DNA of 64,000 nucleotides. Source: a virus. This document shows positions 613-64,000 of this stretch, in pieces. The stretch covers positions 124,001 to 188,000 of the IMG/VR virus record IMGVR_UViG_3300027299_000001; one strand, 5' to 3'. Position 1 is the first letter of the stretch. The number at the start of each line of letters is the position of its first letter. The translations under genes were made by a program, and so were the position numbers. A model generated the notes under the pieces. The model saw only the letters and a program-made list of their open reading frames with translations. It was not told the origin of the DNA and made no database searches.

Positions 613-614
613 CT

Positions 615-6176: not shown

Positions 6177-6187
6177 AAATTAATTAA

Positions 6188-6212: not shown

Positions 6213-6217
6213 ATTGC

Positions 6218-6958: not shown

Positions 6959-6980
6959 CGGTAAATATATTTATCACAGA
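6959..6980. promoter_or_regulatory. Bidirectional late promoter
   Basis: The 22-bp gap between the divergent genes at 6958 and 6981 holds the near-palindrome GTAAATATATTTATC, which provides a TAAATATA box on the plus strand and an ATAAATA box on the minus strand, each about 10 nt from its ATG. Confidence 0.5.
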
Positions 6981-9757: not shown

Positions 9758-9792
9758 TGATCCGGTATGTATAAGTAGCTTTTAATAAAAAA

Positions 9793-18356: not shown

Positions 18357-18363
18357 ATAAATA
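18357..18363 (+). promoter_or_regulatory. Late promoter ATAAATA before gp21
   Basis: Box in an A/T-only stretch, 6 nt before the ATG at 18370. Confidence 0.55.
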
Positions 18364-18369
18364 TATATT

Positions 18370-26271: not shown

Positions 26272-26808
26272 ATGGCATTAAATTTTAACATCAAAAACGA
26301 AATTCGTGAACTTGATCGCAAAACGAGCAGCACTGAATTGGCAGTTCGTAAGTCCAATAAGTACGTGGATATCAAACTGGATCTAATGCAATCCAAAGTA
26401 GGTAATCCATTATATTTTGATCAGTCGATGGTTAATGATGTTGATATCGCTATCGCCACAGACGAAGAGGCTGTGATTGAGTACTTGAAGAACTTATTTA
26501 CATGTGCTCCTGGGGATCTTTACCTGTATCCAAATTTTGGATTGAATCTTAAGAAATACACATTTGAGCCTATAACAGATCGAGTAGCGTCTGAAATAGG
26601 CCATTACATCAAAAACAGTATTGATGACCTTAGCGATGCTTCCACGAAAGGTCCATTAGTTCGACTTGTAAAAGTTTCCATCTATCCAAATATCGAGGCG
26701 AGTCAATTCGAAATCACCATAATATTTCAGGTCCGAATGCTTAGTAAAGAAATAACCTTATTTGGTACCATTTCAACACAAGATGGGGTTTACTTTTTCA
26801 ATAAATAA
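26272..26808 (+). CDS. 25: Baseplate wedge protein gp25
   Basis: 178 residues (T4: 132), a GPW/gp25 family protein at the base of the baseplate wedge. The core is seen at DEEAVIEYLKNLFTCAPGDLYLYPNFGLNLKKYTFEP and the C-terminal strands RLVKVSIYP, QFEITIIFQV. The N-terminal 50 residues are additional. gp6 follows after 5 nt, as is common for this pair. Confidence 0.88.
   Translation: MALNFNIKNEIRELDRKTSSTELAVRKSNKYVDIKLDLMQSKVGNPLYFDQSMVNDVDIAIATDEEAVIEYLKNLFTCAPGDLYLYPNFGLNLKKYTFEPITDRVASEIGHYIKNSIDDLSDASTKGPLVRLVKVSIYPNIEASQFEITIIFQVRMLSKEITLFGTISTQDGVYFFNK
26801..26807 (+). promoter_or_regulatory. Late promoter ATAAATA before gp6
   Basis: The box overlaps the gp25 stop codon and lies 6 nt before the gp6 ATG at 26814. 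Confidence 0.5.
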
Positions 26809-26813
26809 CTACA

Positions 26814-28646
26814 ATGAGTAATATTATCCAAAGAGATGCTATTTTACCACTAAAGAGTGATAGCTACGCAGCATTTGATCCAGTTTCCCTAAAAGACCTT
26901 TTTAAGAAACGTCTTAACGAATCTGGATTATTCACCCAACAGAACCATGAAGGATCAAACCTTGCTGTGCTGAATGATTTCATCTCAATGGCATTTGGCT
27001 CGTTGTTGTTTTATCTTAATAGAACATCCACAGAAGGCATGTTTTCAGAAGCAGACATTTATGAAAACATGAATAGAATTGTCAAGCTAAATGATTACAA
27101 TCCTCAAGGTTATCATAGTGCCAATCTTGGATTTAGTCTGAGTGCAAACCCATCAATTCCCGTTGGCGCATACACCATTCCAAGATATTCATATATCAAT
27201 GTTGTAGGTGATATACATTACTCATTTACCAAAGATGTAAGCTTTGTCAAAAGCGTATCTGGGTTCGAATTTCTTGAAGAGCCATCTGTGCAGCAGTTAC
27301 TCTATCAAGGCAAATTCAGAGAACATCCTACTATCGAGGCAACAGGGGAAGCTAATGAAATTGTTTATCTAATAACAGACTCAGGTACTAAGGTTGATCA
27401 TTTTAACATCCACGTATACGTACAGCAATCAGGAACAACTCAGTGGACATTATGGGAACAAACTCCTTCCTTGTACCTAGAAAACACCAACTCGAAAAAA
27501 TACGAAATTCGTTTTAATGAAAATGAAAGGTATGAATTAAAATTTGGTGATGGGGTAAATGGCGTTCAATTGAATAGCGGTGATAAAATCGCTATCATAT
27601 ATTTGTCGACATTAGGTCAAGAAGGAGAAGTGGGAGCATTGGCGTTGGGTGACGGTAGATTAGTTCCTTTTAATTCAAAAAATTACCAAAGCATTCTTTC
27701 GAGCACATTGCAAACCAATTCGGTTTTAAGTGATTCCCTTTACACAGGATTGCTGTTTGATAATGCATACCCATCTACCTATTCTAGCGAACCAGAGACA
27801 GTAGACCAAATCCGCAAGAATGCACCTAAAGCATACCGTTCGCAATATCGTCTGGTAACTCAAGATGACTTCACAACATATGTCAATACTAACTTTTATA
27901 ACATTTTACAAGATGCAGTAGTAGTTGATAACGACACATTTGTCAATTCATACATGAAGAGAATTTATGAGTATGGTGTATTGGATCCATCGAGAGAAAG
28001 TCGCGTTCTATTCAATCAAGTAATGTTCGCAGACGCTTGCAACTTTAACAACGCGTATATCTTCGCAGTACCACGTCAGATTACTGGTTCGTCGTATACT
28101 TCATATCTTACACCGGCTCAAAAAAGACTCGTATTAAACACGATTCAAAACTCGAAAATTAAGGTACATACAGTCGAGCCTGTTATGGCTGACCCGATCT
28201 ATATCACTTTCGATGTCGGGGTGCCACTATATGGCCAGGATATTACCATGAGTGATATCGGCACATCAGAAATAGTTGTAAATAAAAATCCAGATGTAAG
28301 AGTGAGCAATGCATCAATAATCAATGGCATTACCGCCATCATCGAGGACTATTTTGCAAGGAAAAATATGAAGCTCGGTAAATCGATTGACATATATGAT
28401 CTCAATAATCAAATACTGGCAGTGCCTGGCGTAGGGAGCATTCGTACACAAAGAACAGACAATCCTAATATTTCAGTAGAAGGTCTTGGCTTGGTCGCCT
28501 GGTCAATGGTTTACGGATTGCCTCGCTTTGTGACTTCAAGACTTAATTTGGAATTTTTTGAATTTGGATATTTCCAATCAGGCGTATCAACAAAAATTCG
28601 AATCAACGAAACTGCATCGAATCTATCTAGAGCTATTCAATACTAA
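26814..28646 (+). CDS. 6: Baseplate wedge protein gp6
   Basis: 610 residues (T4: 660), a J-like baseplate wedge component that dimerises around the hub. Features include SEADIYENMNRIVKLNDYNPQGYHSANLGFSLSA near residue 83, a central beta domain with ERYELKFGDGVNGVQLNSGDKIAIIYL near 240, and VDQIRKNAPKAYRSQYRLVTQDDFTTYV near 330, the typical baseplate J signature. It is followed after 2 nt by the next structural gene. Confidence 0.9.
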   Translation: MSNIIQRDAILPLKSDSYAAFDPVSLKDLFKKRLNESGLFTQQNHEGSNLAVLNDFISMAFGSLLFYLNRTSTEGMFSEADIYENMNRIVKLNDYNPQGYHSANLGFSLSANPSIPVGAYTIPRYSYINVVGDIHYSFTKDVSFVKSVSGFEFLEEPSVQQLLYQGKFREHPTIEATGEANEIVYLITDSGTKVDHFNIHVYVQQSGTTQWTLWEQTPSLYLENTNSKKYEIRFNENERYELKFGDGVNGVQLNSGDKIAIIYLSTLGQEGEVGALALGDGRLVPFNSKNYQSILSSTLQTNSVLSDSLYTGLLFDNAYPSTYSSEPETVDQIRKNAPKAYRSQYRLVTQDDFTTYVNTNFYNILQDAVVVDNDTFVNSYMKRIYEYGVLDPSRESRVLFNQVMFADACNFNNAYIFAVPRQITGSSYTSYLTPAQKRLVLNTIQNSKIKVHTVEPVMADPIYITFDVGVPLYGQDITMSDIGTSEIVVNKNPDVRVSNASIINGITAIIEDYFARKNMKLGKSIDIYDLNNQILAVPGVGSIRTQRTDNPNISVEGLGLVAWSMVYGLPRFVTSRLNLEFFEFGYFQSGVSTKIRINETASNLSRAIQY

Positions 28647-53332: not shown

Positions 53333-53635
53333 AAAATACATACTTACCGCAACTTTGATCATTACATAGGCAACAGACAAGAATACCGATAGGACTTTTC
53401 ACACCTCCATCCACACCCAAGTCCAGGTGGCGTAGCATCGTGATTAAACACACATATTTCGCTTATAATAAAGTCTCATGCTTAATCTATATAGATTTCT
53501 GTATTTACAAAGGAACGTATATAACTAAGAGTATGAAGCTTAATATATAGTCTATGCTTCTATTAAGGAAAGCTTACATAGGCATAGTCATAAGGTATAT
53601 CCCGGTTGGGTGGGCATAAGCTTCAAGCGTTTGCA

Positions 53636-53966: not shown

Positions 53967-54317
53967 TCAACCAACAATTCGATCCAGACTCGTCTTCAGA
54001 TCTTTCAGCTTGCATCGGGCATCGAACACATCGCCTTGAGCGGTATTGCACTTCCGATACAGGGCAATGTAAACCTCCTCGTTCCCAATCAGATTTGTTT
54101 TAGCCACCTGCAACTCTTCATTCCATTTAGCAATCGCAACCTCATCAGTGCTATTCAAGATCAGCAATTCATTGAACCCGATATTGCTTCTCATAATGTG
54201 TCTCCGAAGGACGAGATCTTTCAACTGCTTAGAGACCTCTTCATGAATTGCAACCTTGCGGCCGAGGTCGGCTTCGGCATGTTCGATCTTGAGTTGGGTG
54301 AGTTGTGCTTCGGTCAT
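53967..54317 (-). CDS. Early protein, coiled coil
   Basis: 116 residues, mostly helical with heptad-like stretches (LTQLKIEHAEADLGRKVAIHEEVSKQLKDL). No known family. Promoter 54323-54351 (TTGATC/TATATT) overlaps the end of the next gene upstream; the ATG is at the predicted transcription start. Confidence 0.75.
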   Translation of the reverse strand: MTEAQLTQLKIEHAEADLGRKVAIHEEVSKQLKDLVLRRHIMRSNIGFNELLILNSTDEVAIAKWNEELQVAKTNLIGNEEVYIALYRKCNTAQGDVFDARCKLKDLKTSLDRIVG

Positions 54318-54347
54318 GAATCAATATAGCTGAGGGTTGGATTGGGA

Positions 54348-54635
54348 TCAAGCATTGAATACCTTTTTGATTGCGTATTCCAATGGATCCACCCTCCAAC
54401 GCAAGACGTCATGCTCTTCAATGATTGCCACGACTGCCTCTGACCTTATCCTTTTGAACTCCTCAAAAGCAAGAGACATCTCAACCCCAGCCTCGTAGTA
54501 CGCATCCATCAATTCTGCGTCTCCATTGATTGCAGGCTTGAGGATTCGCATCCTTGCCTTTGCTGCTGCTCCCTTTGCGGAGGCGTCTGCCAACTTAAGA
54601 ATCGTCTGCTTCAGCGTCTCTTTGGTATTGCTCAT
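54348..54635 (-). CDS. Early hypothetical protein
   Basis: 95 residues, helical, Ala-rich (LADASAKGAAAKARMRILKPA) with an acidic C-terminal half. Not recognised. Promoter 54641-54669 with TTGACA and TATAGT, 5 nt before the ATG. Confidence 0.75.
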   Translation of the reverse strand: MSNTKETLKQTILKLADASAKGAAAKARMRILKPAINGDAELMDAYYEAGVEMSLAFEEFKRIRSEAVVAIIEEHDVLRWRVDPLEYAIKKVFNA

Positions 54636-54671
54636 GAGATACTATAGCGAAGGGTTGAGTTGCTGTCAAGC

Positions 54672-54875
54672 TTAGTTGTGCAGTGCTTGATGTGCTCTAA
54701 TGATCATCATCATCTTTCGGATCGTGGGGCTAGCATTGAACACAATGCGTCGGTTGTGGAACATGTTCTTCAGCCCCTCTACGTAACCTGTATACATTGA
54801 GGCTTTGCGAGCGCGGAACAAGGTTGTGTTAAGCGAGCCGAGCATTGTGATCCAAGAGAGGACGAAGCGGTACAT
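54672..54875 (-). CDS. Early basic hypothetical protein
   Basis: 67 residues (MYRFVLSWITMLGSLNTTLF...), basic with a hydrophobic N-terminus that might be a membrane anchor. Not recognised. Promoter 54881-54909 (TTGAAC/TATAGT). Confidence 0.68.
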   Translation of the reverse strand: MYRFVLSWITMLGSLNTTLFRARKASMYTGYVEGLKNMFHNRRIVFNASPTIRKMMMIIRAHQALHN

Positions 54876-54905
54876 GTTTTACTATAGCGAAGGGTTGTTC
54901 TGAGT

Positions 54906-55103
54906 TCAACCGTTCTTATCCAGCCAATCCACAATAGCGTCATCGTATGGTGCACAGCCCATGACCTCAATGGCATCCTTGATAATGTCCTCCAACTCCT
55001 GAATGCGGAACACTGCTTCTTCGATCAAGTCGGCGTGCTCTGTCGGCAGGCCATTGTTCGGGAAGGCAGCGTCGAGGAGGCGTTCGATAAGTGATTTGCT
55101 CAT
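54906..55103 (-). CDS. Early acidic hypothetical protein
   Basis: 65 residues, helical and acidic (HADLIEEAVFRIQELEDIIKDAIEVM). Not recognised. Promoter 55109-55137 has a weak -35 (TAGACT) but the conserved spacer box and TATAGT. Confidence 0.7.
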   Translation of the reverse strand: MSKSLIERLLDAAFPNNGLPTEHADLIEEAVFRIQELEDIIKDAIEVMGCAPYDDAIVDWLDKNG

Positions 55104-55129
55104 GAGATACTATAGCGAAGGGTTGTTCC

Positions 55130-55399
55130 TCAGTCTACAAGATTCTCCATCAACGCGGATGCAGTGATGAATTCACGCATCGAGGAGTCGGCAGCAGCCA
55201 CCACTGATTTCAGCTCTGCCGTGGCGATACTGATCTTGTCGTGCTTGCCTTTCTCGAGTGCTACATCCAATCCCATTGCCATTTTAATCTCGATCAGCAC
55301 CTCCAGAATCTCCATCATTGCCTCTCCTTTGAGGATCTCTTCCCGGCAAAGCCGCATCTCTTCTTTGATCTCTTGCATCATTTGTTGGTCTTCAGTCAT
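55130..55399 (-). CDS. Early coiled-coil protein
   Basis: 89 residues, helical (QQMMQEIKEEMRLCREEILKGEAMMEILEVLIEI). Not recognised. Promoter 55405-55433 with perfect TTGACA and TATATT. Confidence 0.75.
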   Translation of the reverse strand: MTEDQQMMQEIKEEMRLCREEILKGEAMMEILEVLIEIKMAMGLDVALEKGKHDKISIATAELKSVVAAADSSMREFITASALMENLVD

Positions 55400-55457
55400 G
55401 AATCAATATAGCTGAGGGTTGAGTTGCTGTCAACTGCTTTTGGATCTGACTAACGCA

Positions 55458-55487
55458 AACAAGGGCAGCAACATGCTACCCCTTGTT
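55458..55487 (-). terminator. Hairpin after early gene 55497
   Basis: 8-bp stem AACAAGGG / CCCTTGTT with a 14-nt loop, between an early gene end and the next promoter. The T-tract is weak. Confidence 0.45.
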
Positions 55488-55496
55488 GATGACTGC

Positions 55497-55772
55497 TCAG
55501 TAATCGTGTACCTCTAAGCCAAGCTTGACTTGATCATCATTGATGGCATTGATGGCATTGTTGGTGATATCTTGAGGCTCGTTACAGATATCGTAAACAT
55601 AATTCTCAGCCACCTTCATCAATTCCGCCTTGCGGAAATCAGGATCATTCATCATCCGGGTTTTAAAAGCCACCCATTCTTCGATGGTATCGAAGGATTC
55701 GCTGTGGAAGCCGATTTCAATGGGAACCATGATGACTGCGTTGATCGACTCTTCTTTGATTGGATTACTCAT
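55497..55772 (-). CDS. Early hypothetical protein, paralogue of 57537
   Basis: 91 residues. The segment VIMVPIEIGFHSESFDTIEEWVAF matches VTVMVPVELPIFRDSFESEEEW of the gene at 57537-57791, so the two are paralogues. Function unknown. Promoter 55778-55806 (TTGACA/TATATT). Confidence 0.75.
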   Translation of the reverse strand: MSNPIKEESINAVIMVPIEIGFHSESFDTIEEWVAFKTRMMNDPDFRKAELMKVAENYVYDICNEPQDITNNAINAINDDQVKLGLEVHDY

Positions 55773-55807
55773 GAATTAATATAGCTGAGGGTTGAGTTGC
55801 TGTCAAC

Positions 55808-56065
55808 TCAGTACGCGTAGTAGAAGAGAGGTGTTGTAAGTGGGTTGTCCATATCAATGACTTTCAGGTCGTACTCTACCAGGCGACCAGGCGCCTGTGG
55901 TTGAGCATTCAAATATTCCAGATGCTGACGAGCAGTCTTCTGTTTGTTGAACACCTTAACCACCCCATACTCCCGGCATCCAAGGCCTCGACCAGTCTCG
56001 TACGTTACCAGATACATCTTGCTGCCGAAGCGTTGCAGGTTGGTTTTCTTGGGGGTCTCAGTCAT
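55808..56065 (-). CDS. Early hypothetical protein
   Basis: 85 residues, alpha/beta (YLVTYETGRGLGCREYGVVKVFN). Not recognised. Promoter 56071-56099 (GTGACA/TATATT) directly abuts the gene upstream. Confidence 0.73.
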   Translation of the reverse strand: MTETPKKTNLQRFGSKMYLVTYETGRGLGCREYGVVKVFNKQKTARQHLEYLNAQPQAPGRLVEYDLKVIDMDNPLTTPLFYYAY

Positions 56066-56099
56066 GAATCAATATAGCCGAGGGTTGGTTTGCTGTCAC

Positions 56100-56291
56100 T
56101 TACTTTTTCAAACGCATCTCTACTTTGGCGTTCGCCCTCCAGAAGTCCGAGACGATCTCTTGGCCGGGGTGGCCATTGTAAGATACCTGAACGAAGTTCT
56201 TGGCGGCGGCGTGGAACTCGGTAAGGAGGCTTTCGAGTTCCGCAGCTTCGGCGCGGGCGAGGAGTTGGATGTCTTCTTGGGTTTCAGTCAT
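56100..56291 (-). CDS. Early small helical protein
   Basis: 63 residues (MTETQEDIQLLARAEAAELESLL...). Not recognised. Promoter 56297-56325 (TTGCCG/TATATT). Confidence 0.7.
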   Translation of the reverse strand: MTETQEDIQLLARAEAAELESLLTEFHAAAKNFVQVSYNGHPGQEIVSDFWRANAKVEMRLKK

Positions 56292-56331
56292 GAATCAATA
56301 TAGCTGAGGGTTGGTTTGCCGGCAAGTGTTG

Positions 56332-56469
56332 TTATTTGGATAGAGCAATTCCAATCGTCACCAGCGTTGCAAATACCACCAGCAGCGCCAGCACTCCCAC
56401 CACCGCCTCGTGTGTTGCGCTTCGAACGGCCCTTGCGTATCTCTTCTCGAACTCTGGATCTTTAGTCAT
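56332..56469 (-). CDS. Early small membrane protein
   Basis: 45 residues from the ATG at 56469, chosen because it lies 5 nt after the -10 of promoter 56475-56503; a longer in-frame ORF would read through that promoter. C-terminal membrane segment VVGVLALLVVFATLVTIGIAL. Confidence 0.7.
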   Translation of the reverse strand: MTKDPEFEKRYARAVRSATHEAVVGVLALLVVFATLVTIGIALSK

Positions 56470-56509
56470 GAGATAATATAGCAGAGGGTTGGTTTGCCGG
56501 CAAGTCATT

Positions 56510-56695
56510 TCAGATGGAGGCTTCTCGAGCTTCAGCCAACCACCTATCCATGCCATCGTCAGAATCGTCAGTGCTTTCGACGTGCTGTACTGCTACAAAC
56601 AACAAATCTTTCAAACGATCGATCTTTAGCTGAAGCTCACGATTTTCGCGATGTAAATAGTCAATTTCGCATTTCAGTTGTTCAGTATTAGTCAT
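56510..56695 (-). CDS. Early small coiled-coil protein
   Basis: 61 residues; LKCEIDYLHRENRELQLKIDRLKDLLF is a clear leucine-zipper-like coiled coil. Promoter 56701-56729 (TTGTCA/TATATT). Confidence 0.73.
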   Translation of the reverse strand: MTNTEQLKCEIDYLHRENRELQLKIDRLKDLLFVAVQHVESTDDSDDGMDRWLAEAREASI

Positions 56696-56698
56696 GAA

Positions 56699-56887
56699 TC
56701 AATATAGCTGAGGGTTGGTTTGCTGACAAGCTTCTTTGTTATGGATGATCGCTTTTGCTGTAATCAGGGCTCCAGGACTTCGCCACCAGGATCCTGCACT
56801 GGTAGTCTTTTGGGCTAAATCCTCGTACGTGGCTACCAGCTCTTTCATCACCCGAATCAACTTCTCTTCTTCAGTTGCCTGGTTCAT
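56699..56887 (-). CDS. Early small protein, second gene of a pair
   Basis: 62 residues (MNQATEEEKLIRVMKELVATYEDLAQ...). It lacks its own promoter and overlaps the upstream gene by 4 bp, so it is translated from the same mRNA by coupling. Not recognised. Confidence 0.7.
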   Translation of the reverse strand: MNQATEEEKLIRVMKELVATYEDLAQKTTSAGSWWRSPGALITAKAIIHNKEACQQTNPQLY

Positions 56888-57147
56888 TCAGGAAACGTAA
56901 AGGTTGGGCGCCCCATTGGTGTCAGCATATAATCTGAATCCAGGATACAAGTGTTCATGACATCATAGTCAGTACAACATTCCTTGATAATAACAAAATG
57001 CACCCTTTCGGCATCGTTCTTCGAATTCTGCCATGCACATGGCCTCATCCTCATCAATAGCAACCCTCCTTGTTGTTTATACAAAACACCAATCTTGGCA
57101 TCCTGGGCTCGAATGGCGGTTGCGTCTTGTGTGTTGGTGAACTTCAT
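56884..57147 (-). CDS. Early protein, paralogue of 57178
   Basis: 87 residues. Shares AQDAKIGVLYK, MRMRPC, VHFV and a C-terminal GRPTFTFPE with the gene at 57178-57495. Function unknown. Promoter 57153-57181 (TTGACA/TATATT). Confidence 0.75.
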   Translation of the reverse strand: MKFTNTQDATAIRAQDAKIGVLYKQQGGLLLMRMRPCAWQNSKNDAERVHFVIIKECCTDYDVMNTCILDSDYMLTPMGRPTFTFPE

Positions 57148-57177
57148 GAGATAATATAGAAGAGGGTTGAGTTGCTG

Positions 57178-57495
57178 TCAAGTGGTAGGGAAGGCGAAAG
57201 ATGGTTCGCCAATCAAGATGATTTGCTCGTGACTCCTCTTAATCATCCCATCGACTTCCGGTTCCTCGTTCATTTGCAACCGATTATCTGGCATAGTATA
57301 CACATGAGCCACCCTCACAAAGTGGATCCACTCTTCACCCCTCGGCAACGCCTGCTTGTTAACGTTTTCCTGATGGGCGATGCATGGGTTGATGCGCATG
57401 ATGTAGTCAGGCCCAGACTTGTAAAGGAGCCCGACTTGGGCATCCGCGGCGTCGATGGATGCTGGGCGTTGAGGAGGTGTGTTAGAGTAGTGCAT
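57178..57495 (-). CDS. Early protein, paralogue of 56884
   Basis: 105 residues with DAADAQVGLLYK, MRINPC, IHFVRV and GEPSFAFP, matching the downstream paralogue. Function unknown. Promoter 57501-57529 (TTGCAC/TATATT). Confidence 0.75.
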   Translation of the reverse strand: MHYSNTPPQRPASIDAADAQVGLLYKSGPDYIMRINPCIAHQENVNKQALPRGEEWIHFVRVAHVYTMPDNRLQMNEEPEVDGMIKRSHEQIILIGEPSFAFPTT

Positions 57496-57536
57496 GAGAT
57501 AATATAGCAGAGGGTTGAGTGTTGTGCAAGCGATTG

Positions 57537-57791
57537 TTAGTCGTGGAACTTCTGAATTTCAATCCGGCCCGATTCGATTTCGCTTGACAAGTTATCCATA
57601 ATCATACAGCGCCCTGCATTGTCGTCATATATTTCAACCATGTCTGTTGCAGCAGCCTTCAACCCTTCTGGAGTAGAAAGGCGTTGTAGCATTTCCTGCC
57701 ACTCCTCTTCGCTTTCAAAGCTATCGCGGAAAATCGGAAGCTCTACTGGCACCATGACTGTCAGGACTACTTGTGTTGGCAATTGGCTCAT
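57537..57791 (-). CDS. Early protein, paralogue of 55497
   Basis: 84 residues; see the MVPVE...SFESEEEW motif shared with 55497-55772. Acidic C-terminal half. Promoter 57797-57825 with perfect TTGACA and TATATT. Confidence 0.75.
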   Translation of the reverse strand: MSQLPTQVVLTVMVPVELPIFRDSFESEEEWQEMLQRLSTPEGLKAAATDMVEIYDDNAGRCMIMDNLSSEIESGRIEIQKFHD

Positions 57792-57827
57792 GAGATAATA
57801 TAGCAGAGGGTTGAGTTGCTGTCAAGC

Positions 57828-57932
57828 TTATTTCAGCAAGCGCCACATTCCATACAAGGAGGTGAAGCTGAGAATGAAAACTGCTGTAGTGCAGCGAATG
57901 ATATCGAAGGTGGTTTCAAGTGCGAAGGGCAT
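57828..57932 (-). CDS. 34-residue early membrane peptide
   Basis: Short ORF MPFALETTFDIIRCTTAVFI ending MWRLLK, with one probable membrane segment (TAVFILSFTSLYGMW). The call rests on the perfect promoter 57938-57966 (TTGACA/TATATT) with the standard 5-nt gap to the ATG. Confidence 0.65.
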   Translation of the reverse strand: MPFALETTFDIIRCTTAVFILSFTSLYGMWRLLK

Positions 57933-57970
57933 GAAGCAATATAACCTAGGGTGAAGGTGCTGTCAACACA

Positions 57971-57998
57971 AGAGGGAGGGGAACCCTCCCCTCCCTCT
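57971..57998 (-). terminator. GC-rich hairpin after early gene 58012
   Basis: Perfect 11-bp stem AGAGGGAGGGG / CCCCTCCCTCT with a 6-nt loop, between the end of the gene at 58012 and the next promoter. Confidence 0.55.
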
Positions 57999-58011
57999 AC
58001 TTTTCCGAACC

Positions 58012-58455
58012 TCAAGCTGCAATCAGCTCTTGCTTTTTCGCAGCCCGTTGTTCCCTCCGCCGGCGATTCCGTTCTTCCCTTTTCGCAGCCTCCACTTCAT
58101 TTTCGGTTGGCACAACCACCTCAGCTTCGGGTTCCACAAATACCACCACCTCAGCGTCTTCCTTCGCAACCGGAACTTCCACCGCCACCGACTCCTTCCG
58201 CGCACCACGCGATTTGTAGTGGAGGAACATTTGAACGAGATCTCCGTTGAACTTTTCGATCCGCTTTTGGAAGACTGGCGTCTGGCTCATTCCCACCTTC
58301 AACCCAGTAGCGGAGCAGTACATGTAGAATGGGCGCTTACCCTTTTCAACGTAGTTGCTGATCATTCGCACCATATCTTTAATGGCGGCTTCATCATTGG
58401 CGAGGGCGTGGTTGGTGTTGATGAGCAGTTCGGTGAAGACGGTTTCTTGATTCAT
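58012..58455 (-). CDS. Early protein with GKRPFYMYCS motif, paralogue of 63495
   Basis: 147 residues. The N-terminal 90 residues (GKRPFYMYCSATGLKVGMSQTPVF, MFLHYKSRGARKE) match the gene at 63495-63956; the C-terminal part is charged and low-complexity (EEERNRRRREQRAAKK-like). Unlike most early genes it has a leader of about 30 nt, containing ACCAAATAACA at 58471-58481, after promoter 58489-58517 (TTGACA/TATATT). Confidence 0.78.
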   Translation of the reverse strand: MNQETVFTELLINTNHALANDEAAIKDMVRMISNYVEKGKRPFYMYCSATGLKVGMSQTPVFQKRIEKFNGDLVQMFLHYKSRGARKESVAVEVPVAKEDAEVVVFVEPEAEVVVPTENEVEAAKREERNRRRREQRAAKKQELIAA

Positions 58456-58533
58456 TTGGTTTGAAGTGTTTGTTATTTGGTGTGACTTAATATAGCTGAG
58501 GGTATGTTTGCTGTCAACTGTCTTTTGCTTCTT

Positions 58534-58776
58534 TCAAATCCACCCCTGCCCGAAGAGACTGAGGATTGCGGCGTCAACCATTTTCTCCAATTCCGCCAGT
58601 GCTTTCATTCCTTCTTCACCCACCTCATCTTCCAACGCCGCCCCACCGCCAACCACATACGCCAAATCCATTTGCAGTTGAATCATCTCGTTGTCCAGAA
58701 CTTCCAACCTTTCCAGGATGCCGGTGAGCTCTGGGTGTTTGCTGAGTGCGATTTTGATTTGATTGATCATGTGCAT
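58534..58776 (-). CDS. Early hypothetical helical protein
   Basis: 80 residues (MHMINQIKIALSKHPELTGILERLEVLDNEM...), helical. Promoter 58782-58810 (TTGACA/TATATT) places the start at the first ATG of MHM. Confidence 0.73.
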   Translation of the reverse strand: MHMINQIKIALSKHPELTGILERLEVLDNEMIQLQMDLAYVVGGGAALEDEVGEEGMKALAELEKMVDAAILSLFGQGWI

Positions 58777-58817
58777 GAATAAATATAGCTGAGGGTGGGT
58801 TTGCTGTCAAGCTGTTT

Positions 58818-59099
58818 TTACCAAGTGTGATATCCGACCGGAATGTCATCATTGACTTCCAACTGGCAGTCGTCGTTGATGTCAACCATAATCTTTCTCA
58901 TCATTTCCCCTTTCGTAACCACCCCGTGGTCAACCAAAGTATTGTACCCAGAACCAGGTTCTTCTTCTTTTCGAATCCAGAAGTGGATCTTGTCTTTATT
59001 CCTGTAGGTTTCCATCTCCCACCCTTTAGTATGCGTCATCTTTCTGGTTACGGGCATGAAATATGCAGACAGATTAAACTTGAATGTGTGTTGGAACAT
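58818..59099 (-). CDS. Early hypothetical protein
   Basis: 93 residues, beta-rich with His and aromatic residues (KIHFWIRKEEEPGSGYNTLVDHG). Not recognised. Promoter 59105-59133 (TTGTCA/TATATT). Confidence 0.73.
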   Translation of the reverse strand: MFQHTFKFNLSAYFMPVTRKMTHTKGWEMETYRNKDKIHFWIRKEEEPGSGYNTLVDHGVVTKGEMMRKIMVDINDDCQLEVNDDIPVGYHTW

Positions 59100-59143
59100 G
59101 TAACAATATAGCTGAGGGTTGGTTTGATGACAACGGTCTTTTG

Positions 59144-59320
59144 CTACTTCCTGAATTTGAATGCGTACCTACTACTCAGGCGGATGTCAAACATGCGGTA
59201 GAACCCAACACGACGGTATACTGTTCGACTTGCAATGCCGAACACATGGTTGAACTCCCGTCACCGAAACGCTGCTGCTGCCCGTTCCTGTGTCTGTTTT
59301 CTTTGCTTCCTTTTATTCAT
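59144..59320 (-). pseudogene. Paralogue of 59634 gene interrupted by in-frame TGA
   Basis: From the ATG at 59320 the frame reads MNKRKQRKQTQERAAAAFR, then TGA (59261-59263), then continues without gap (REFNHVFGIASRTVYRR...MFDIRLS) to TAG at 59144. It aligns without gaps to the intact gene at 59634-59837, where the TGA position is Arg. A C-to-T change of CGA would explain it; readthrough is the alternative. Its promoter 59326-59354 (-10 TAGATT) is of the same subtype as that of the intact copy. Confidence 0.7.
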
Positions 59321-59369
59321 GAGTCAATCTATATGAGGGTTTGGTTTGCTGCACCTACTTTTATAGGCT

Positions 59370-59603
59370 TCAGATCGTGGACATGTAGTGTTCCACCACC
59401 GGAGCAATGCTCTCGGACATTTGTTTCATGTTTGACCGGAGCTTCGGGCTGAGGTGCATCCCTGCATTGAACTCCCAGATGCGATTTTCAATCATCGCCA
59501 GTTCGCGCTGAAGCCCGATAGCTTGCTCGACCAGTTCCATCCATTTGACATGGATATGATCTTCGAGTTCCAGTGGCGTGGTGATGTCGAGCGCAGCTTT
59601 CAT
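59370..59603 (-). CDS. Early hypothetical helical protein
   Basis: 77 residues (MKAALDITTPLELEDHIHVKWMELVEQ...), helical. Not recognised. Promoter 59609-59637 (TTGACC/TAATAT). Confidence 0.72.
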   Translation of the reverse strand: MKAALDITTPLELEDHIHVKWMELVEQAIGLQRELAMIENRIWEFNAGMHLSPKLRSNMKQMSESIAPVVEHYMSTI

Positions 59604-59633
59604 GTTATATATTACGACGGGGTTGTTTGCAGG

Positions 59634-59837
59634 TCAAGCGTCAAATACAGTTCTCGTGCCTTCCATTTTCTTTACCCAAGCATTCATTTCAGTCAGCCTC
59701 ATATCAAGGACCCATGACAACCTCAAACGCCTCCAATAAGCAAGATTCCGAATGTAAGGGTTGGTGGTAAGCAATCGGCGGCGAAAGGCTGCAGACGCTC
59801 TGGATTGGCTTTGTTTCTTTTGCTTCCTTTTATTCAT
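59634..59837 (-). CDS. Early basic protein, intact paralogue
   Basis: 67 residues, strongly basic (MNKRKQKKQSQSRASAAFRR) followed by WRRLRLSWVLDMRLTEM. Possibly nucleic-acid binding. Intact relative of the interrupted copy at 59144-59320. Promoter 59843-59871 (GTGCAG/TAGATT). Confidence 0.72.
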   Translation of the reverse strand: MNKRKQKKQSQSRASAAFRRRLLTTNPYIRNLAYWRRLRLSWVLDMRLTEMNAWVKKMEGTRTVFDA

Positions 59838-59886
59838 GAGTCAATCTATAGGAGGGTTTGGTTTGCTGCACCTGCTTTTGTGTGTT

Positions 59887-60030
59887 TCAGTCTTCCCCTT
59901 CGAGCGTGCTCTTCACTTCCTTCTTCGTGACCTCCTTCAGCTTCTGCCTCACGTTCGTACCGTCGAGCTTGTGGTACTTGCTGGAGTTGAGGCTGCGATC
60001 ATTGATCTTGCGGTACTGAGCGTTCTTCAT
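59887..60030 (-). CDS. Early 47-residue basic protein
   Basis: MKNAQYRKINDRSLNSSKYH... ending STLEGED; Lys-rich. Not recognised. Supported by promoter 60036-60064 (TTGACA/TATATT), which lies inside the 3' end of the gene upstream. Confidence 0.7.
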   Translation of the reverse strand: MKNAQYRKINDRSLNSSKYHKLDGTNVRQKLKEVTKKEVKSTLEGED

Positions 60031-60041
60031 GTTTTAATATA

Positions 60042-60317
60042 TCACCGTGTTGTGACACTGTCAACATACTTGTCTGCGAGTTCTTCCCAGTCCACCTCTT
60101 TCAAGAAGGCCTCGATCATTGTAGAGATGAGGTAGGAAGGTGTGCGCAAGAACTCAGAGTTAATGCATTCTTCAACTACACCTTCAAACATGCCAGCCAA
60201 CCGACCTCGATCTTCGATCAAATTCTCTTGGGCTTCTTCGACGATTGAAATAAAGACTTGTTCGAACTGCCCGTCAATCTGTTGCGTTTCGTAATTGAAT
60301 TCAGTGTTTTTGCTCAT
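60042..60317 (-). CDS. Early acidic hypothetical protein
   Basis: 91 residues, acidic and helical (QQIDGQFEQVFISIVEEAQENLIEDRGRLAGMFE). Not recognised. Promoter 60323-60351 (TTGACC/TATATT). Confidence 0.73.
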   Translation of the reverse strand: MSKNTEFNYETQQIDGQFEQVFISIVEEAQENLIEDRGRLAGMFEGVVEECINSEFLRTPSYLISTMIEAFLKEVDWEELADKYVDSVTTR

Positions 60318-60347
60318 GAGATAATATAGCGCAGGGTTGTTTGCAGG

Positions 60348-60869
60348 TCAAAGGCTAAGTGCAGCAATCAGCAACTCCGCCAATTTCCAAGATGCCCGTT
60401 CGCCCTTGACATATGAAATGTTCTTGTCCACAAAAGCCCGTTGATGTTCTTGAAGGCGGAGAATGGCAAACCAGCAAAGGTTATCTTCTCCAACGAAATT
60501 AGGTGCCTGCCAAGATACTTTGCCTTCCTTATCCACCCACTTCAATCCAGCACCTCGAGTCCACCCCATTACATGCTCTGCAATGTATTCATTAATCTCG
60601 TATTCCGTCTGAAGATTGATGTTCTTTCCTTTGAACCGACAAATCGCCAGCGCCTCTCCTTTGAACTTGCCCGTTTTCGAATCGCGCAACCATACCGAGT
60701 ACCATAGTCCAGGATTGGCATCGAACAGGTACCTTGCAGATCGAACAGCATCAATCGGTGTGTCGTAACTCCCTCGGATGGTGAGGATGTTCCGACCGTC
60801 TTTGTTCATTTCACTGGCTTTGGTAGACGGTTGCACGTACGTGGTGACGATTACGATTTCATTGCTCAT
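60348..60869 (-). CDS. Early protein with possible ABA-sandwich domain
   Basis: 173 residues. The middle (INEYIAEHVMGWTRGAGLKWVDKEGKVSWQAPNFVGED) recalls the phage ABA-sandwich domain (VAEKVMGW...P.FS.D). The N-terminus (NILTIRGSYDTPIDAVRSARYLF) is separate. Function unknown. Promoter 60875-60903 (TTGACT/TATATT), whose -35 box is formed by the last codons of the upstream gene. Confidence 0.73.
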   Translation of the reverse strand: MSNEIVIVTTYVQPSTKASEMNKDGRNILTIRGSYDTPIDAVRSARYLFDANPGLWYSVWLRDSKTGKFKGEALAICRFKGKNINLQTEYEINEYIAEHVMGWTRGAGLKWVDKEGKVSWQAPNFVGEDNLCWFAILRLQEHQRAFVDKNISYVKGERASWKLAELLIAALSL

Positions 60870-60895
60870 GAGATAATATAGCTGTGGGTTGTGGT

Positions 60896-61018
60896 CTAGT
60901 CAAGATTCGATGCGTACACTCCAATGATAACACCGCAAACAAATAGTGCAGTATTGGTATCAGCCACAGCAAAGCTTGCGCAGGCGATCATGAATAAGAT
61001 GTATGGGTTCCTTAGCAT
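60896..61018 (-). CDS. Early 40-residue membrane protein
   Basis: MLRNPYILFMIACASFAVAD then TNTALFVCGVIIGVYASNLD: two short membrane segments. It starts 1 nt after the stop of the upstream gene and shares its transcript. Confidence 0.65.
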   Translation of the reverse strand: MLRNPYILFMIACASFAVADTNTALFVCGVIIGVYASNLD

Positions 61019-61019
61019 A

Positions 61020-61271
61020 CTATTCGATTTTGGCCATTAGTGCCAACGCAGCTTCCACGATCTCATTCGCCTTCTCGGCGATTTCCTGTGGAGTCCTGAT
61101 CACAGGGCTAGCAGCCAGCGACGCAATCATGTGCGTCATCATGACTTCCCTCTTAGAGAGACCCATGTACGTATTCAGTACCGTCCTACCGTCGCTGGAG
61201 TAGGAAATATGCGGGAATGCATTTCCCCATCCCATCTTCCGTGGATTTGTTTCTTTGCCGAAGAAGCCCAT
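61020..61271 (-). CDS. Early hypothetical protein
   Basis: 83 residues. MGFFGKETNPRKMGWGNAFPHISYSSDG then a helical C-terminus (IAEKANEIVEAALALMAKI). Not recognised. Starts 1 nt after the upstream stop; middle gene of a three-gene operon. Confidence 0.73.
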   Translation of the reverse strand: MGFFGKETNPRKMGWGNAFPHISYSSDGRTVLNTYMGLSKREVMMTHMIASLAASPVIRTPQEIAEKANEIVEAALALMAKIE

Positions 61272-61272
61272 A

Positions 61273-61443
61273 TTAGCGAGAGATCAGAGCCCATTCTTGT
61301 TCCGTGAGAACCTTGACAGGAGCGCTCTTATTCAGCCGAGGCTTTCGGAATGACCAATGTTTCCTTGCCTTAGAGATGAAGATCGAAGCGCCCTCCGAGT
61401 GGATGCGGTTCTTCATTGTATTCGGTGTGGATGTGTTGCTCAT
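61273..61443 (-). CDS. Early 56-residue basic protein
   Basis: MSNTSTPNTMKNRIHSEGAS... with KARKHWSFRKPRLNK and a C-terminal TEQEWALISR. Not recognised. First gene of the operon 61443-60896; promoter 61449-61477 (TTGACT/TATATT). Confidence 0.72.
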   Translation of the reverse strand: MSNTSTPNTMKNRIHSEGASIFISKARKHWSFRKPRLNKSAPVKVLTEQEWALISR

Positions 61444-61495
61444 GAGATAATATAGCTTCGGGTTTTGTTTAAGTCAAATGGTTTGTGTGCATCGA

Positions 61496-61705
61496 TTATT
61501 GCTCATCATTTCCGACAAGATCCAAAGCAGCACCGATCTCTTTGGTGGTTTCTTTGCGAAGCCGCCTCTTGGCAATGGACATGGTGTACTTCTTGTGCCT
61601 ACGAATAGACCTGAACTTCCGACAGCAGTAACACCCAAAGACGCCACGCTTATTCCGACTGCCGTCGAGATTCTCTTTCTTTTGATAAGCACGTAGTTGG
61701 TCCAT
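61496..61705 (-). CDS. Early basic protein with CxCC motif
   Basis: 69 residues, basic, with GVFGCYCCRKFRSIRRHKK, a possible small metal site. Not recognised. Promoter 61711-61739 has TATATT but a poor -35 (GCTTGC at 17 bp, or TTGCAG at 15 bp). Confidence 0.7.
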   Translation of the reverse strand: MDQLRAYQKKENLDGSRNKRGVFGCYCCRKFRSIRRHKKYTMSIAKRRLRKETTKEIGAALDLVGNDEQ

Positions 61706-61750
61706 GTATTAATATATTTGGGTTGTGGAGACTGCAAGCTAATATGCAAA

Positions 61751-61801
61751 GGTGCAGTGGGATAATAGTCTGGACCATACAGAACTAAACCCCACTGCAC
61801 C
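61751..61801 (-). other. Structured element with 11-bp closing stem
   Basis: GGTGCAGTGGG and CCCACTGCACC enclose a 29-nt loop that can itself form an imperfect inner stem (AGTCTG / CAGAACT). It lies after the gene ending at 61821. It could be a terminator-like 3' structure or a small RNA element; there is no T-run. Confidence 0.45.
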
Positions 61802-61820
61802 CCAGAGACGAGAGGTTGCC

Positions 61821-62381
61821 TTATGGCTTTACTGTGTCGGTATTGCTACTGCACGTCCACTTCACCCCGAGCGGATAAGGACTAACCTGTGTCATTCCTT
61901 GGCCAGAATTTGGTACAAGCACAGCCAATATATTGTTGAAGGAGGCAGTGGTGTTGAGAAGGCTATTAACCGTAGCAACAAGGTGGCTGATAGTCTTTTC
62001 TTGTGCTGAGGTAATGTCCTTCAACCGTTCGATCTCCAAATACGCTCCTGTGAGATCAGACTCATTGTCATTTACCTTATTGACAAGATCATCGAAGTCG
62101 ATATCAAAGAGATCCGGAAGATCATCGAATCGTGATTCAATGTTTTCAATCCTATCTTCGTGTTCGTCTACTTGATCTTCCCGTCTGGATAGACGGGTGT
62201 CTGTTTCCTTCTCATTCGCCTCGATCTCTTTCTGAATCACCTTGATGGAGTTGCCGTGGTTCGATAGCACATTGGTGACCTCATCAACCCACTCAGTCAT
62301 GTCTTTGAATGCTTCGATGACATCATTTTCTGAAGGTGCCGTGTTTACACCAGCGAGGCGGAGGATTTGTTCTGCAGTCAT
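61821..62381 (-). CDS. Early long coiled-coil protein
   Basis: 186 residues from the ATG at 62381; a longer ORF start at 62432 lies in the promoter. A long coiled coil spans residues 45-130 (VIQKEIEANEKETDTRLSRR, VNDNESDLTGAYLEIERLKD), followed by a hydrophobic C-terminal part. It has a leader of about 20 nt after promoter 62404-62432 (TTGACG/TATATT), with ACCAAATAACA ending 2 nt before the ATG, as for gp32. Function unknown. Confidence 0.78.
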   Translation of the reverse strand: MTAEQILRLAGVNTAPSENDVIEAFKDMTEWVDEVTNVLSNHGNSIKVIQKEIEANEKETDTRLSRREDQVDEHEDRIENIESRFDDLPDLFDIDFDDLVNKVNDNESDLTGAYLEIERLKDITSAQEKTISHLVATVNSLLNTTASFNNILAVLVPNSGQGMTQVSPYPLGVKWTCSSNTDTVKP

Positions 62382-62428
62382 AATGTTATTTGGTATGTAT
62401 GTTAATATAGCTGAGGGGTTGTTTGCCG

Positions 62429-62752
62429 TCAATCCGGTTTCGTGATTTCCATGATAATTCCTTCGTTATTCATATGTTCTCTTTTCCAGGTCTCTGCTGC
62501 CTCCTTTGTTGAGAACGTAACCGGGCAGAAGTTATCTCGCCACCATACCCACGCCTTTGCTGGATTTGGCTTGACCCTCCATCGTGAAAGATCCGAACCC
62601 AAGTCAGGGCCATTTGCGGCCGACCCGGTTGGCACGCACCAACCTGCTGTGGCGTATTTGAATTCGAATAGCCGATCTGAATTTGCCGCGGCGAGCGCAT
62701 AGAATTCAGAAAGAGCTTTGCACTTGGTTTCGTAATTAGTTTTGCAGTCCAT
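62429..62752 (-). CDS. Early protein, paralogue of 62802
   Basis: 107 residues. Shares K.KALSEFY, GPDLGSDLSRWRVKP, a Trp/Val strand and a C-terminal EITKPD with the upstream neighbour of equal length. Tandem duplicate. Function unknown. Promoter 62758-62786 (TTGCAA/TATATT). Confidence 0.76.
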   Translation of the reverse strand: MDCKTNYETKCKALSEFYALAAANSDRLFEFKYATAGWCVPTGSAANGPDLGSDLSRWRVKPNPAKAWVWWRDNFCPVTFSTKEAAETWKREHMNNEGIIMEITKPD

Positions 62753-62801
62753 GTTTTAATATAGTTGAGGGTTGAGTTGCTTGCAAATGGCTTTTGCCAC
62801 T

Positions 62802-63125
62802 TCAGTCTGGTTTCACAAGTTCCTGGATCTTTCCCTTCCCATCAGCGTGTTCGTTATTCCATGACTCTGCATCTTCGAGATTCGAAAACGATGGTGCCGA
62901 CGTCAAGTGCCCCCTGACTATCCAATCACAATTAAGCCATACTACATATACTTTCTGCGTCATTGGCTTGACCCTCCAACGAGTAAGATCCGACCCCAAG
63001 TCGGGCCCGTGGCTTTCGTCGCCCCAACCACCAACCATGTAATTGAATTGAATTGGTTGATCGGGGTTCTTTACTGCTTCTGTGTAGAATTCGGCGAGCG
63101 CTTTGCGTTTAGCTTTGTAGTCCAT
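62802..63125 (-). CDS. Early protein, paralogue of 62429
   Basis: 107 residues with KRKALAEFYTEAV, GPDLGSDLTRWRVKP, and ending ELVKPD. Function unknown. Promoter 63131-63159 (TTGCAA/TATATT). Confidence 0.76.
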   Translation of the reverse strand: MDYKAKRKALAEFYTEAVKNPDQPIQFNYMVGGWGDESHGPDLGSDLTRWRVKPMTQKVYVVWLNCDWIVRGHLTSAPSFSNLEDAESWNNEHADGKGKIQELVKPD

Positions 63126-63167
63126 AAGATAATATAGAGGTGGGTTGTGTTGCTTGCAAGTAGTTTA

Positions 63168-63386
63168 TTAGGATTCGAGGGGCCAGTTCCCCCAGAGGAA
63201 GGCGGAAACGATCTGGTACCAATCCAAATCGGCCGTGAGATATTCCGGATACCGTTGCTGCATCACCTCCGTCATGAACCCGATCATCCCGTAATAGTCT
63301 TCCGGCGAATCAACCAGGATATCAACCCAATCGATTTGGTCAACCATCTCTTGTGTGTTCTTGTTGCTCCACTTCATTTTGTGCAT
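63168..63386 (-). CDS. Early acidic hypothetical protein
   Basis: 72 residues (MVDQIDWVDILVDSPEDYYGMIGF...), acidic and Trp-rich. Not recognised. Promoter 63392-63420 (TTGACT/TATATT). Confidence 0.73.
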   Translation of the reverse strand: MHKMKWSNKNTQEMVDQIDWVDILVDSPEDYYGMIGFMTEVMQQRYPEYLTADLDWYQIVSAFLWGNWPLES

Positions 63387-63430
63387 GAATTAATATAACA
63401 CCGGGTTTAGTTAAAGTCAAACAATAAACT

Positions 63431-63468
63431 GCGGAGGGGGAGTCTGACTCCCTAAGCTCCCCCTCCGC
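63431..63468 (-). terminator. GC-rich hairpin after early gene 63495
   Basis: Perfect 12-bp stem GCGGAGGGGGAG / CTCCCCCTCCGC with a 14-nt loop, just downstream of the gene ending at 63495. Confidence 0.6.
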
Positions 63469-63494
63469 GTTTCTTTCCCTCTTTCCCAGTTGCC

Positions 63495-63956
63495 TCAACC
63501 CGCCACCGATGCGGTCAGCTGACCATTGCGATCGTTAGCCTCTTCTGGGGCGTACCAAATGTAGTCAGGTTCCGTAGAACCTGGGAACGGTGTCGGCTCC
63601 GGGGTTGGTGCGGGGACCGACACTTCCTTCTGAGTCTTGTCTGGCTTAGGAGTCTTCACCTTTGGCTCTTTCGGAACCTTCTTTTCCTTTGCTTCCGTAC
63701 CGTCTTTCCGTGCATCCCGAGACTTGTACTCCAGGAACATTCGGACAATATCACCACCATAAGCAGCGAGACGCTTCTCAAAAACAGCTTGTTGACTCAT
63801 GCCCACCTTAGTTCCAGTGACGGAACAATACATGTGGAATGGTCGTTTTCCGTTTTGTTGGAAGGCATCAATCAGCTTAACCATCTCCGCAACCGACTTC
63901 TCGTCGTCACGAAGGATATGATTGCTATTCTTAATCAGTTCGTTTGTGTTGCTCAT
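63495..63956 (-). CDS. Early protein with GKRPFHMYCS motif, paralogue of 58012
   Basis: 153 residues. N-terminal domain GKRPFHMYCSVTGTKVGMSQQAVF and MFLEYKSRDARKD as in 58012-58455; C-terminal half Pro/Lys-rich (KEPKVKTPKPDKTQ, PAPTPEPTPFPG) and probably disordered. Unknown function. Promoter 63962-63990 (TTGACT/TATATT); this gene has no leader, unlike its paralogue. Confidence 0.78.
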   Translation of the reverse strand: MSNTNELIKNSNHILRDDEKSVAEMVKLIDAFQQNGKRPFHMYCSVTGTKVGMSQQAVFEKRLAAYGGDIVRMFLEYKSRDARKDGTEAKEKKVPKEPKVKTPKPDKTQKEVSVPAPTPEPTPFPGSTEPDYIWYAPEEANDRNGQLTASVAG

Positions 63957-64000
63957 GAGATAATATAGCTTCGGGTTTATTTTAAGTCAAACGGTTTGTC

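Follow-up and report, generated by a model that had tools for sequence, protein, structure and literature searches.

As a rule, leaderless mRNAs form a minority class; in phages they are a curiosity (lambda cI, phiYS40). The Thermus thermophilus phage phiYS40 makes leaderless middle and late mRNAs, with the promoter start coinciding with the start codon at many genes (PMC3594737, citing Sevostyanova 2007). Its middle and late promoters are reported to consist of a -10 element only, the sigmaA-type -10/-35 promoters forming the early class. T4-type phages have strong sigma70-type early promoters with extra conserved positions ahead of many small, mostly dispensable genes, and promoter cassettes have spread from gene to gene in them (PMC2988021; PMC4503421). 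In bacteria, leaderless genes of Deinococcus-Thermus, Actinobacteria and some alphaproteobacteria carry a -10 box at a short fixed distance ahead of the start codon (PMC3160421, PMC12340547, PMC4842269). The sigma70 promoters of Sinorhizobium and Bradyrhizobium read CTTGAC-N17-CTATAT, with GCTATA as an extended -10 (PMC2873474, PMC4842269).

The locus studied here lies in IMGVR_UViG_3300027299_000001 (hereafter G000), a record of 195.9 kb; the window is the 64,000-nucleotide stretch from position 124,001 to 188,000 of that record. G000 belongs to the T4 superfamily. It encodes the gp23 capsid protein, large terminase, sheath, gp19 and the late sigma factor gp55 (record positions 97602-97934, E 4e-15), as well as a portal protein that, like gp21, was assigned from ORF reading alone. 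Its capsid protein is only about 33-34% identical to those of cultured phages. No capsid relatives were found in GTDB genome contigs, and WhiB, looked for as a clue to the host, was not found. The same phage is present in another IMG/VR assembly (L017/L019, 100% identical over the compared parts).

The right end of the window contains a module of 33 consecutive small genes, mostly orphans, read leftwards on the minus strand (53967..63956). Thirty minus-strand sigma70-type promoters are found at 54323-63990. In 28 of them the ATG starts exactly 5 nt past the -10 hexamer, as originally counted. The thirty sites also agree with the original prediction, whereas the uniform 17-bp spacer and TATATT hexamer given there do not hold throughout: 29 sites have a 17-bp spacer and one has a 15-bp spacer, and the hexamer is TATATT in 24, TATAGT in three, TAGATT in two and TAATAT in one.

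All promoters are on the minus strand, and the position of the ATG is given in brackets. TTGACA-17-TATATT is found at 60036..60064 (60030; within the 3' end of the upstream gene, an arrangement that had been predicted), 58782..58810 (58776), 57938..57966 (57932), 57797..57825 (57791), 57153..57181 (57147), 55778..55806 (55772), 55405..55433 (55399) and 58489..58517. At this last site the adjacent triplet is ACA and the ATG (58455) lies 33 nt past the hexamer. TTGACT-17-TATATT occurs at 63962..63990 (63956), 63392..63420 (63386), 61449..61477 (61443) and 60875..60903 (60869), TTGCAA-17-TATATT at 63131..63159 (63125) and 62758..62786 (62752), TTGTCA-17-TATATT at 59105..59133 (59099) and 56701..56729 (56695), and TTGCCG-17-TATATT at 56475..56503 (56469) and 56297..56325 (56291). 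TTGACC-17-TATATT at 60323..60351 (60317) extends with its -35 into the end of the upstream gene. TTGACG-17-TATATT at 62404..62432 is followed by ATA, the ATG (62381) being 22 nt past the hexamer. Other variants are TTGCAC-17-TATATT at 57501..57529 (57495), GTGACA-17-TATATT at 56071..56099 (56065), TTGATC-17-TATATT at 54323..54351 (54317), TTGACC-17-TAATAT at 59609..59637 (59603) and the short-spacer TTGCAG-15-TATATT at 61711..61737 (61705). TATAGT is the hexamer of TAGACT-17-TATAGT at 55109..55137 (55103), TTGAAC-17-TATAGT at 54881..54909 (54875) and TTGACA-17-TATAGT at 54641..54669 (54635). GTGCAG-17-TAGATT is found at 59843..59871 (59837) and 59326..59354 (59320), the second preceding a short gene that is probably a defective copy of the one at 59837.

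A 38-bp weight matrix built from the aligned upstream regions, as had been suggested, separates the array clearly: the median score of its sites is 46 bits (two atypical sites, 61716 and 59614, were part of the training, and two sites score low when left out), against a maximum of 16.7 bits in length-matched first-order Markov sequences (15 replicates). An independent promoter scan found 42 promoters versus 12.3 +/- 2.9 in shuffles. The spacer is itself conserved, AACCC at -21..-17 reaching 1.6-2.0 bits per position, above the last three bases of TTGACA. GC directly precedes the -10. The -35 is aligned as well, and at 25 of the 26 aligned sites a C stands directly before the ATG, giving a C/A initiator step. 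The 5 nt ahead of the ATG co-vary with the first codons (ATCTC-ATGAGCAA, GATTC-ATGACTGA), so cassettes including the first codons have clearly spread. Given the 5-nt gap, the ATG begins on the sixth base past TATATT. A polymerase preferring position 7 or 8 would start one or two bases later, on its T or G. Taking CTATAT as the -10, in the Sinorhizobium style, widens the gap to 6.

An own promoter of this leaderless type precedes 28 of the 33 genes, and for these the expectation of one promoter per gene holds. Two more have a promoter and a short leader of roughly 17-28 nt. The remaining three have none, and each of them adjoins or overlaps the stop codon of the gene upstream (gaps 1, 1 and -4). 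The first 40 nt of the predicted array mRNAs are unstructured (-1.5 vs -6.5 kcal/mol, p = 7e-12). Terminator-like sites number 12 against 10.4 in shuffles (both strands), without enrichment between genes. Searches of Pfam and PHROG gave no above-chance match for 10 array genes, and IMG/VR homologues of the two array proteins searched were found only in the same phage. Unstructured, A-rich starts are also common among leadered genes.

The module resembles T4-type early arrays in having host sigma70-type promoters ahead of many small same-strand genes, with cassettes spread among genes. However, T4 genes are SD-led (51%) and none of the T4 -35/-10 promoters stands at a gap of 4-8 nt; leadered, SD-led transcripts are not what the G000 module predicts. 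PeSL cassettes combine a promoter with a stem-loop, whereas the array lacks terminator enrichment. As in phiYS40, many genes are each predicted to have a promoter start at the start codon. The phiYS40 pattern of leaderless -10-only middle and late promoters and leadered early ones is nevertheless not that of G000, a T4-superfamily phage in which the -35/-10 promoters themselves are of leaderless type and the late ones of gp55 type. The view that no phage module is built this way must thus be qualified by the leaderless mRNAs of phiYS40 and by the T4-type early promoters before small genes. There are exact matches to CTTGAC-N17-CTATAT at several array sites, and GC ahead of TATATT is retained at most, as in Sinorhizobium and Bradyrhizobium, but the relatives of G000 use TATAAT without GC. 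Bacterial leaderless genes are cellular and a minority in each genome; here a phage lineage shows scarcely any SD signal.

What is new is the comparative result: the promoter-to-ATG spacing is conserved over nine relatives, in early-type and late promoters alike. The comparison set comprised nine IMG/VR phages with major capsid proteins 61-90% identical to that of G000. Their stretches were analysed singly rather than joined, so that genes cut at stretch ends were missed, and G004, G007, G008, G009 and G010 were compared without their last 2-12 kb. The motif search suggested with the original prediction gave next to nothing when the exact G000 promoter was sought in these relatives; in IMG/VR the exact array motif occurs only in the same phage (L017/L019), apart from a single fortuitous hit in L018 that falls within a structural gene, on the other strand. 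The common design emerged only through profiling of box-to-ATG gaps. Together the nine relatives have about 100 -35/-10 promoters exactly 6 nt ahead of an ATG, where about 3 are expected. Across the clade, -10 boxes lie at a fixed distance of about 5-7 nt ahead of start codons far above chance. Pooled with the ATG as +1, the relatives show TTG at -34/-35 and TATAAT at -12..-7. Promoters at the 6-nt gap number none in T4, HTVC008M and the alphaproteobacterial T4-type phages phiM12 and Cr30, one in P-SSM2 and two in C48C1. Three relatives, G002, G003 and G007, have separate small-gene arrays with different spacer sequences and the same -35/-10-to-ATG geometry.

Late promoters follow the same rule. 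In the relatives, gp55-type late boxes (TATAAATA) stand 4-6 nt ahead of the start codon, with 52 cases at gaps 4-6 against 21 across gaps 7-30. The corresponding counts in T4 are 0 and 16. In G000, TAAATA or TAAGTA is located 5-7 nt ahead of 39 start codons, structural genes included. Two examples on the plus strand of the window are the TAAATA boxes at 18358..18372, 6 nt ahead of the ATG (18370) of a gp21-like prohead protease gene, and at 26802..26816, 6 nt ahead of the ATG (26814) of a baseplate-like gene (610 aa).

SD motifs, counted with a simple ORF caller on which the values depend, precede 5-15% of first ATGs in this clade against 1-9% for the internal-ATG null; the values are 51% in T4 and 24-39% in other cultured T4-like phages. 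G000 itself has 5% at first ATGs and 8% at internal ATGs, and G002, G004, G010 and G011 are somewhat above their internal rate. An unbiased k-mer scan returned TAAATA, TATAAT and TTGATT as the top pre-ATG signals of the clade, versus AAGGA/GGAG in T4. About 46% of G000 genes, in a crude classification, have no promoter box, SD or coupling, so SD-less leadered initiation occurs too.

The conserved placement of the promoters, the lack of an SD signal, the unstructured 5' ends and the coupling pattern lead us to propose that host RNA polymerase early and gp55-polymerase late would make leaderless mRNAs, and that one promoter per gene would follow from SD loss (probability about 0.8). The small genes of the array would most likely be early ones, to judge from the host-type promoters and the type of gene, and would serve in host takeover. 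Each gene would have its own strong host-sigma70-type promoter, with the RNA starting at the A of the ATG, and ribosomes would load at the 5'-terminal AUG. An internal cistron without SD would be loaded poorly. It would need either a 5' end to itself, which would account for one promoter per gene, or termination-reinitiation, by which the promoterless abutting or overlapping genes may be reached. The array would then be a local form of a lineage-wide habit in which sigma70-type and gp55-type promoters put the start codon at about +1. The leaderless reading of the original prediction is thus well supported at the sequence level, with the spacing recurring in nine relatives and at late promoters and with little or no SD signal. 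A wider claim is, on balance, probable: that the whole T4-superfamily lineage abandoned SD initiation, with leaderless host-polymerase and gp55 late genes and reinitiation-coupled cistrons between them. This would impose the one-promoter-per-gene architecture, and it probably mirrors or takes advantage of an unusual translation apparatus in the host.

The usual +1 for a TATATT hexamer is the seventh base downstream, here the T of the ATG, and the RNA of these promoters could begin there, at the G or beyond, an internal codon being the true start. We find this improbable. The start codon stays in the same place at 28 genes, the relatives at gap 6 have their ATG at the canonical +1, and the C preceding the ATG argues in the same direction. 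Moreover, the array paralogues 56884/57178 align from Met1 and 62429/62802 from residue 2 or 6, which places translation starts at or near the adjacent ATGs. Less probable still is an RNA-level translation signal, a ribosome-recruiting motif at a fixed distance to each start codon in a long polycistronic mRNA. The fixed distance, the conservation of AACCC above parts of the -35 and the lack of terminator enrichment between genes would fit such a signal, yet TTGACA-17-TATATT with GC ahead of the -10 is a sigma70 promoter of classical form, the relatives change the spacer sequence while keeping -35, -10 and distance, and late genes carry a late-promoter box at the same place rather than the array motif.

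The co-variation of the pre-ATG bases with the first codons and the paralogy of some array genes also suggest duplication of a single promoter-plus-start cassette, whose fixed spacing would reflect shared descent instead of selection for leaderless starts. As the whole explanation this is the least probable of the three: most array proteins look unrelated, with paralogy in only some tested pairs, and in three relatives the geometry recurs in independent arrays whose sequences differ. It is also shared by late genes present in one copy, so the fixed spacing is found outside recent duplicates. Duplication is therefore at most a minor contributor, explaining the spread of the cassettes and not the clade-wide spacing.

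With leaderless transcription as the preferred reading, this phage lineage seems to have reshaped the T4 transcription programme, in both its arms, around leaderless mRNAs. It may offer a natural system for studying how leaderless messages compete for ribosomes in infection, why SD sites are dispensable and whether the cost is a promoter for every gene. Gene finders that expect SD, and promoter predictors, would mis-call starts in such phages, for which the fixed box-to-ATG distance would allow start codons to be assigned, and early and late genes recognised, directly from the sequence alone.

A single-subunit-RNAP-type promoter was also considered, the AACCCTCA...TATA of the array promoter resembling the T3 promoter. 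It was dropped: Pfam scans of most large ORFs gave no RNA polymerase, and the clade keeps the -35/-10 geometry rather than the spacer. Promoter copies also occur beyond the window. Same-strand array copies continue at record positions 188906, 189079, 189645 and 190493, and about 11 variant copies precede leucine-rich-repeat genes at record 192-195.5 kb and 0.3-1.4 kb. Isolated copies are found at record positions 7400 and 15120.

The array of 33 small genes at window positions 53967-63956 is read leftward throughout. The original prediction counted 30 promoters, with the ATG 5 nt past the -10 hexamer in 28 of them, and both numbers were reproduced exactly. Its picture of the elements was slightly too uniform: the -10 hexamer is TATATT in 24 promoters but TATAGT (3), TAGATT (2) or TAATAT (1) in six, and the 17-bp spacer is present in all promoters but one, which has 15 bp. 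Similarly, the idea of one promoter per gene applies to most of the array. For 28 genes, the start codon and the predicted transcription start coincide; two others have a promoter followed by a leader, and three lack a promoter. In the two leadered cases, the triplet adjoining the promoter is ATA or ACA and the ATG lies about 17 or 28 nt further on. The three promoterless genes are exactly those whose ATG abuts or overlaps the upstream stop codon (gaps of 1, 1 and -4 nt). Intergenic spaces are mostly 26-52 nt, with room for little more than a promoter. Terminators are not enriched in the array (12 vs 10.4 expected), so its transcripts probably overlap.

The array is a real, non-chance feature. 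With a weight matrix, its sites score a median of 46 bits, versus a maximum of 16.7 in 15 first-order Markov genomes, and strong sites lie on the minus strand without exception. The array extends past the window on the same strand to record 188.9-190.5 kb. Beyond this extension, about 11 variant promoter copies precede leucine-rich-repeat genes at both record ends. The spacer sequence is also conserved, chiefly AACCC at -21 to -17 and GC directly before the -10 element, and a C immediately precedes the ATG in 25 of 26 aligned sites. AACCC may be an extra recognition element for the host polymerase or a factor, or may merely reflect shared descent. The best sites, CTTGAC-N17-CTATAT, match the published Sinorhizobium sigma70 consensus (PMC2873474). 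In Bradyrhizobium, a GC extension of the -10 element was demonstrated to matter (PMC4842269).

Paralogue alignments begin at Met1 (56884/57178) or at the second or sixth residue (62429/62802), which supports translation from the assigned array ATGs. Over their first 40 nt, the array mRNAs are rich in A and C and nearly unstructured (-1.5 vs -6.5 kcal/mol internally, p = 7e-12). Across 54317-63956, the five bases upstream of each ATG co-vary with the first codons, in ATCTC-ATGAGCAA, GATTC-ATGACTGA and AAAAC-ATG classes. This suggests that promoter-plus-start cassettes moved between array genes. Such cassettes recall the promoter plus stem-loop cassettes (PeSLs) of T4-type phages (PMC4503421) but have no stem-loop. 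A short, apparently broken copy of gene 59634-59837 at 59235-59320 retains promoter and start codon.

The phage of the window (G000; bases 124001-188000 of an IMG/VR record of 195,888 bp) belongs to the T4 superfamily. It encodes a gp23-type capsid and a T4-type terminase, tail sheath, gp19 and UvsY. Reading of the sequence added ORFs for portal, gp21 and a clamp-like protein. A second assembly, 3300027534_000002, contains the same phage. Nine IMG/VR relatives were chosen by related capsid using tblastn (90% identity for G011, 61-64% for the other eight). In a capsid tree, G000 and relatives form a fully supported branch separate from T4, phiM12 and C48C1, a result to be read with caution given the long outgroup branches.

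The main result is that the leaderless-type promoter arrangement is lineage-wide. The relatives were profiled for distances from -10-like hexamers to ATG without the G000 motif. Pooled, they yielded about 100 -35/-10 pairs with a 6-nt gap versus about 3 expected from gaps of 12-30 nt. Seven of them (G002, G003, G007, G008, G005, G004 and G009) show this signal strongly; in G010 and G011, both short records, it is weak or absent. With the A of the ATG as +1, the pooled sites have TTGA from -34/-35 and TATAAT at -12 to -7; with TATATT as -10 element, the ATG of the G000 array sits one base nearer than usual, and RNA may start at its A, T or G. Small-gene arrays occur in G002, G003 and G007, with the same geometry, different spacers and a promoter consensus of their own (in G007, CTTGaagTTCC...aaTTCCctTATACT-N6-ATGAAAAATAAG). 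No pair at gap 6 was found in T4 (95 kb), phiM12, HTVC008M or Cr30 (50 kb each); P-SSM2 has one and C48C1 two. In the open-access literature searched, we found no description of a T4-type lineage of such design.

Late promoters follow the same arrangement. The late box of T4 type, TATAAATA, occurs in the relatives 52 times at 4-6 nt before an ATG vs 21 times at 7-30 nt; the T4 counts are 0 and 16. In G000, a looser TAAATA/TAAGTA box takes the corresponding position upstream of 39 start codons, including those of gp21, gp22-like, baseplate-like and tail genes. In T4, about one helical turn separates the start from the late box upstream of it (PMC2988020), so late mRNAs of G000 and its relatives should be leaderless too. 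G000 has a gp55-like late sigma factor (record 97602-97934, E 4e-15), and Pfam scans of most of its large ORFs found no phage RNA polymerase. The cultured pelagiphage HTVC008M (1-50 kb) may also have leaderless late genes: four of its TATAAATA boxes are 4-6 nt from an ATG downstream vs two at 7-30 nt, although Shine-Dalgarno (SD) sites are common.

A single ORF caller was applied to all genomes. In G000, 5% of first ATGs follow an SD motif (internal ATGs 8%), compared with 5-15% in the relatives (internal 1-9%); the share is 51% for T4 and 24-39% for five further cultured phages of T4 type. The most direct evidence that clade start codons are marked by promoters, not by ribosome-binding sites, comes from a prior-free k-mer scan. 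Upstream of ATGs, AAGGA/GGAG is the top signal in T4, and TAAATA at -12, TATAAT at -12 and TTGATT at -34 are the top signals in the G000 clade. By a crude classification, about 46% of G000 genes lack box, SD and coupling alike, so some genes are translated from leaders without SD or have had their starts mis-called.

We propose that a host sigma70-type polymerase would begin array RNAs at the A of the ATG, presumably early in infection, and that 70S ribosomes would load on the 5'-terminal AUG, the established route for leaderless mRNA (PMC9031893). The gp55-polymerase would likewise start late RNAs at the ATG. An internal cistron devoid of SD would be poorly loaded and would need either a 5' end to itself or ribosomes that reinitiate after the preceding gene, which would explain both the one-promoter-per-gene layout and the promoterless exceptions. 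Of this scheme, the analysis itself shows the geometry and its conservation, the missing SD signal, how the 5' ends are structured and which genes are coupled.

Both leadered array genes (window 62404-62381 and 58489-58455) and the gp32-like ssb gene (window 604-615) have ACCAAATAACA in their leaders. The scan of this record gave five occurrences of the 9-mer CAAATAACA, three of them within these leaders. This motif may be an SD-less ribosome-loading element. Elsewhere, a cluster of 28 tRNA genes, between them representing most anticodon boxes, lies at 2012-10357 of stretch L011. A sugar-nucleotide/glycosyltransferase cluster of lower G+C at record 100-120 kb (GDP-mannose dehydratase, GT10, GT25, WavE-like) may hint that the host is Gram-negative. 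Tandem leucine-rich-repeat-like paralogues lie towards both record ends (window 50292-53380, about 4100-7600 of L009 and about 290-2600 of L010), the distal ones preceded by the array-promoter variant CCCTAAGCTATAGTATTGTATG. The assembly break probably falls in these repeats, in a circularly permuted genome.
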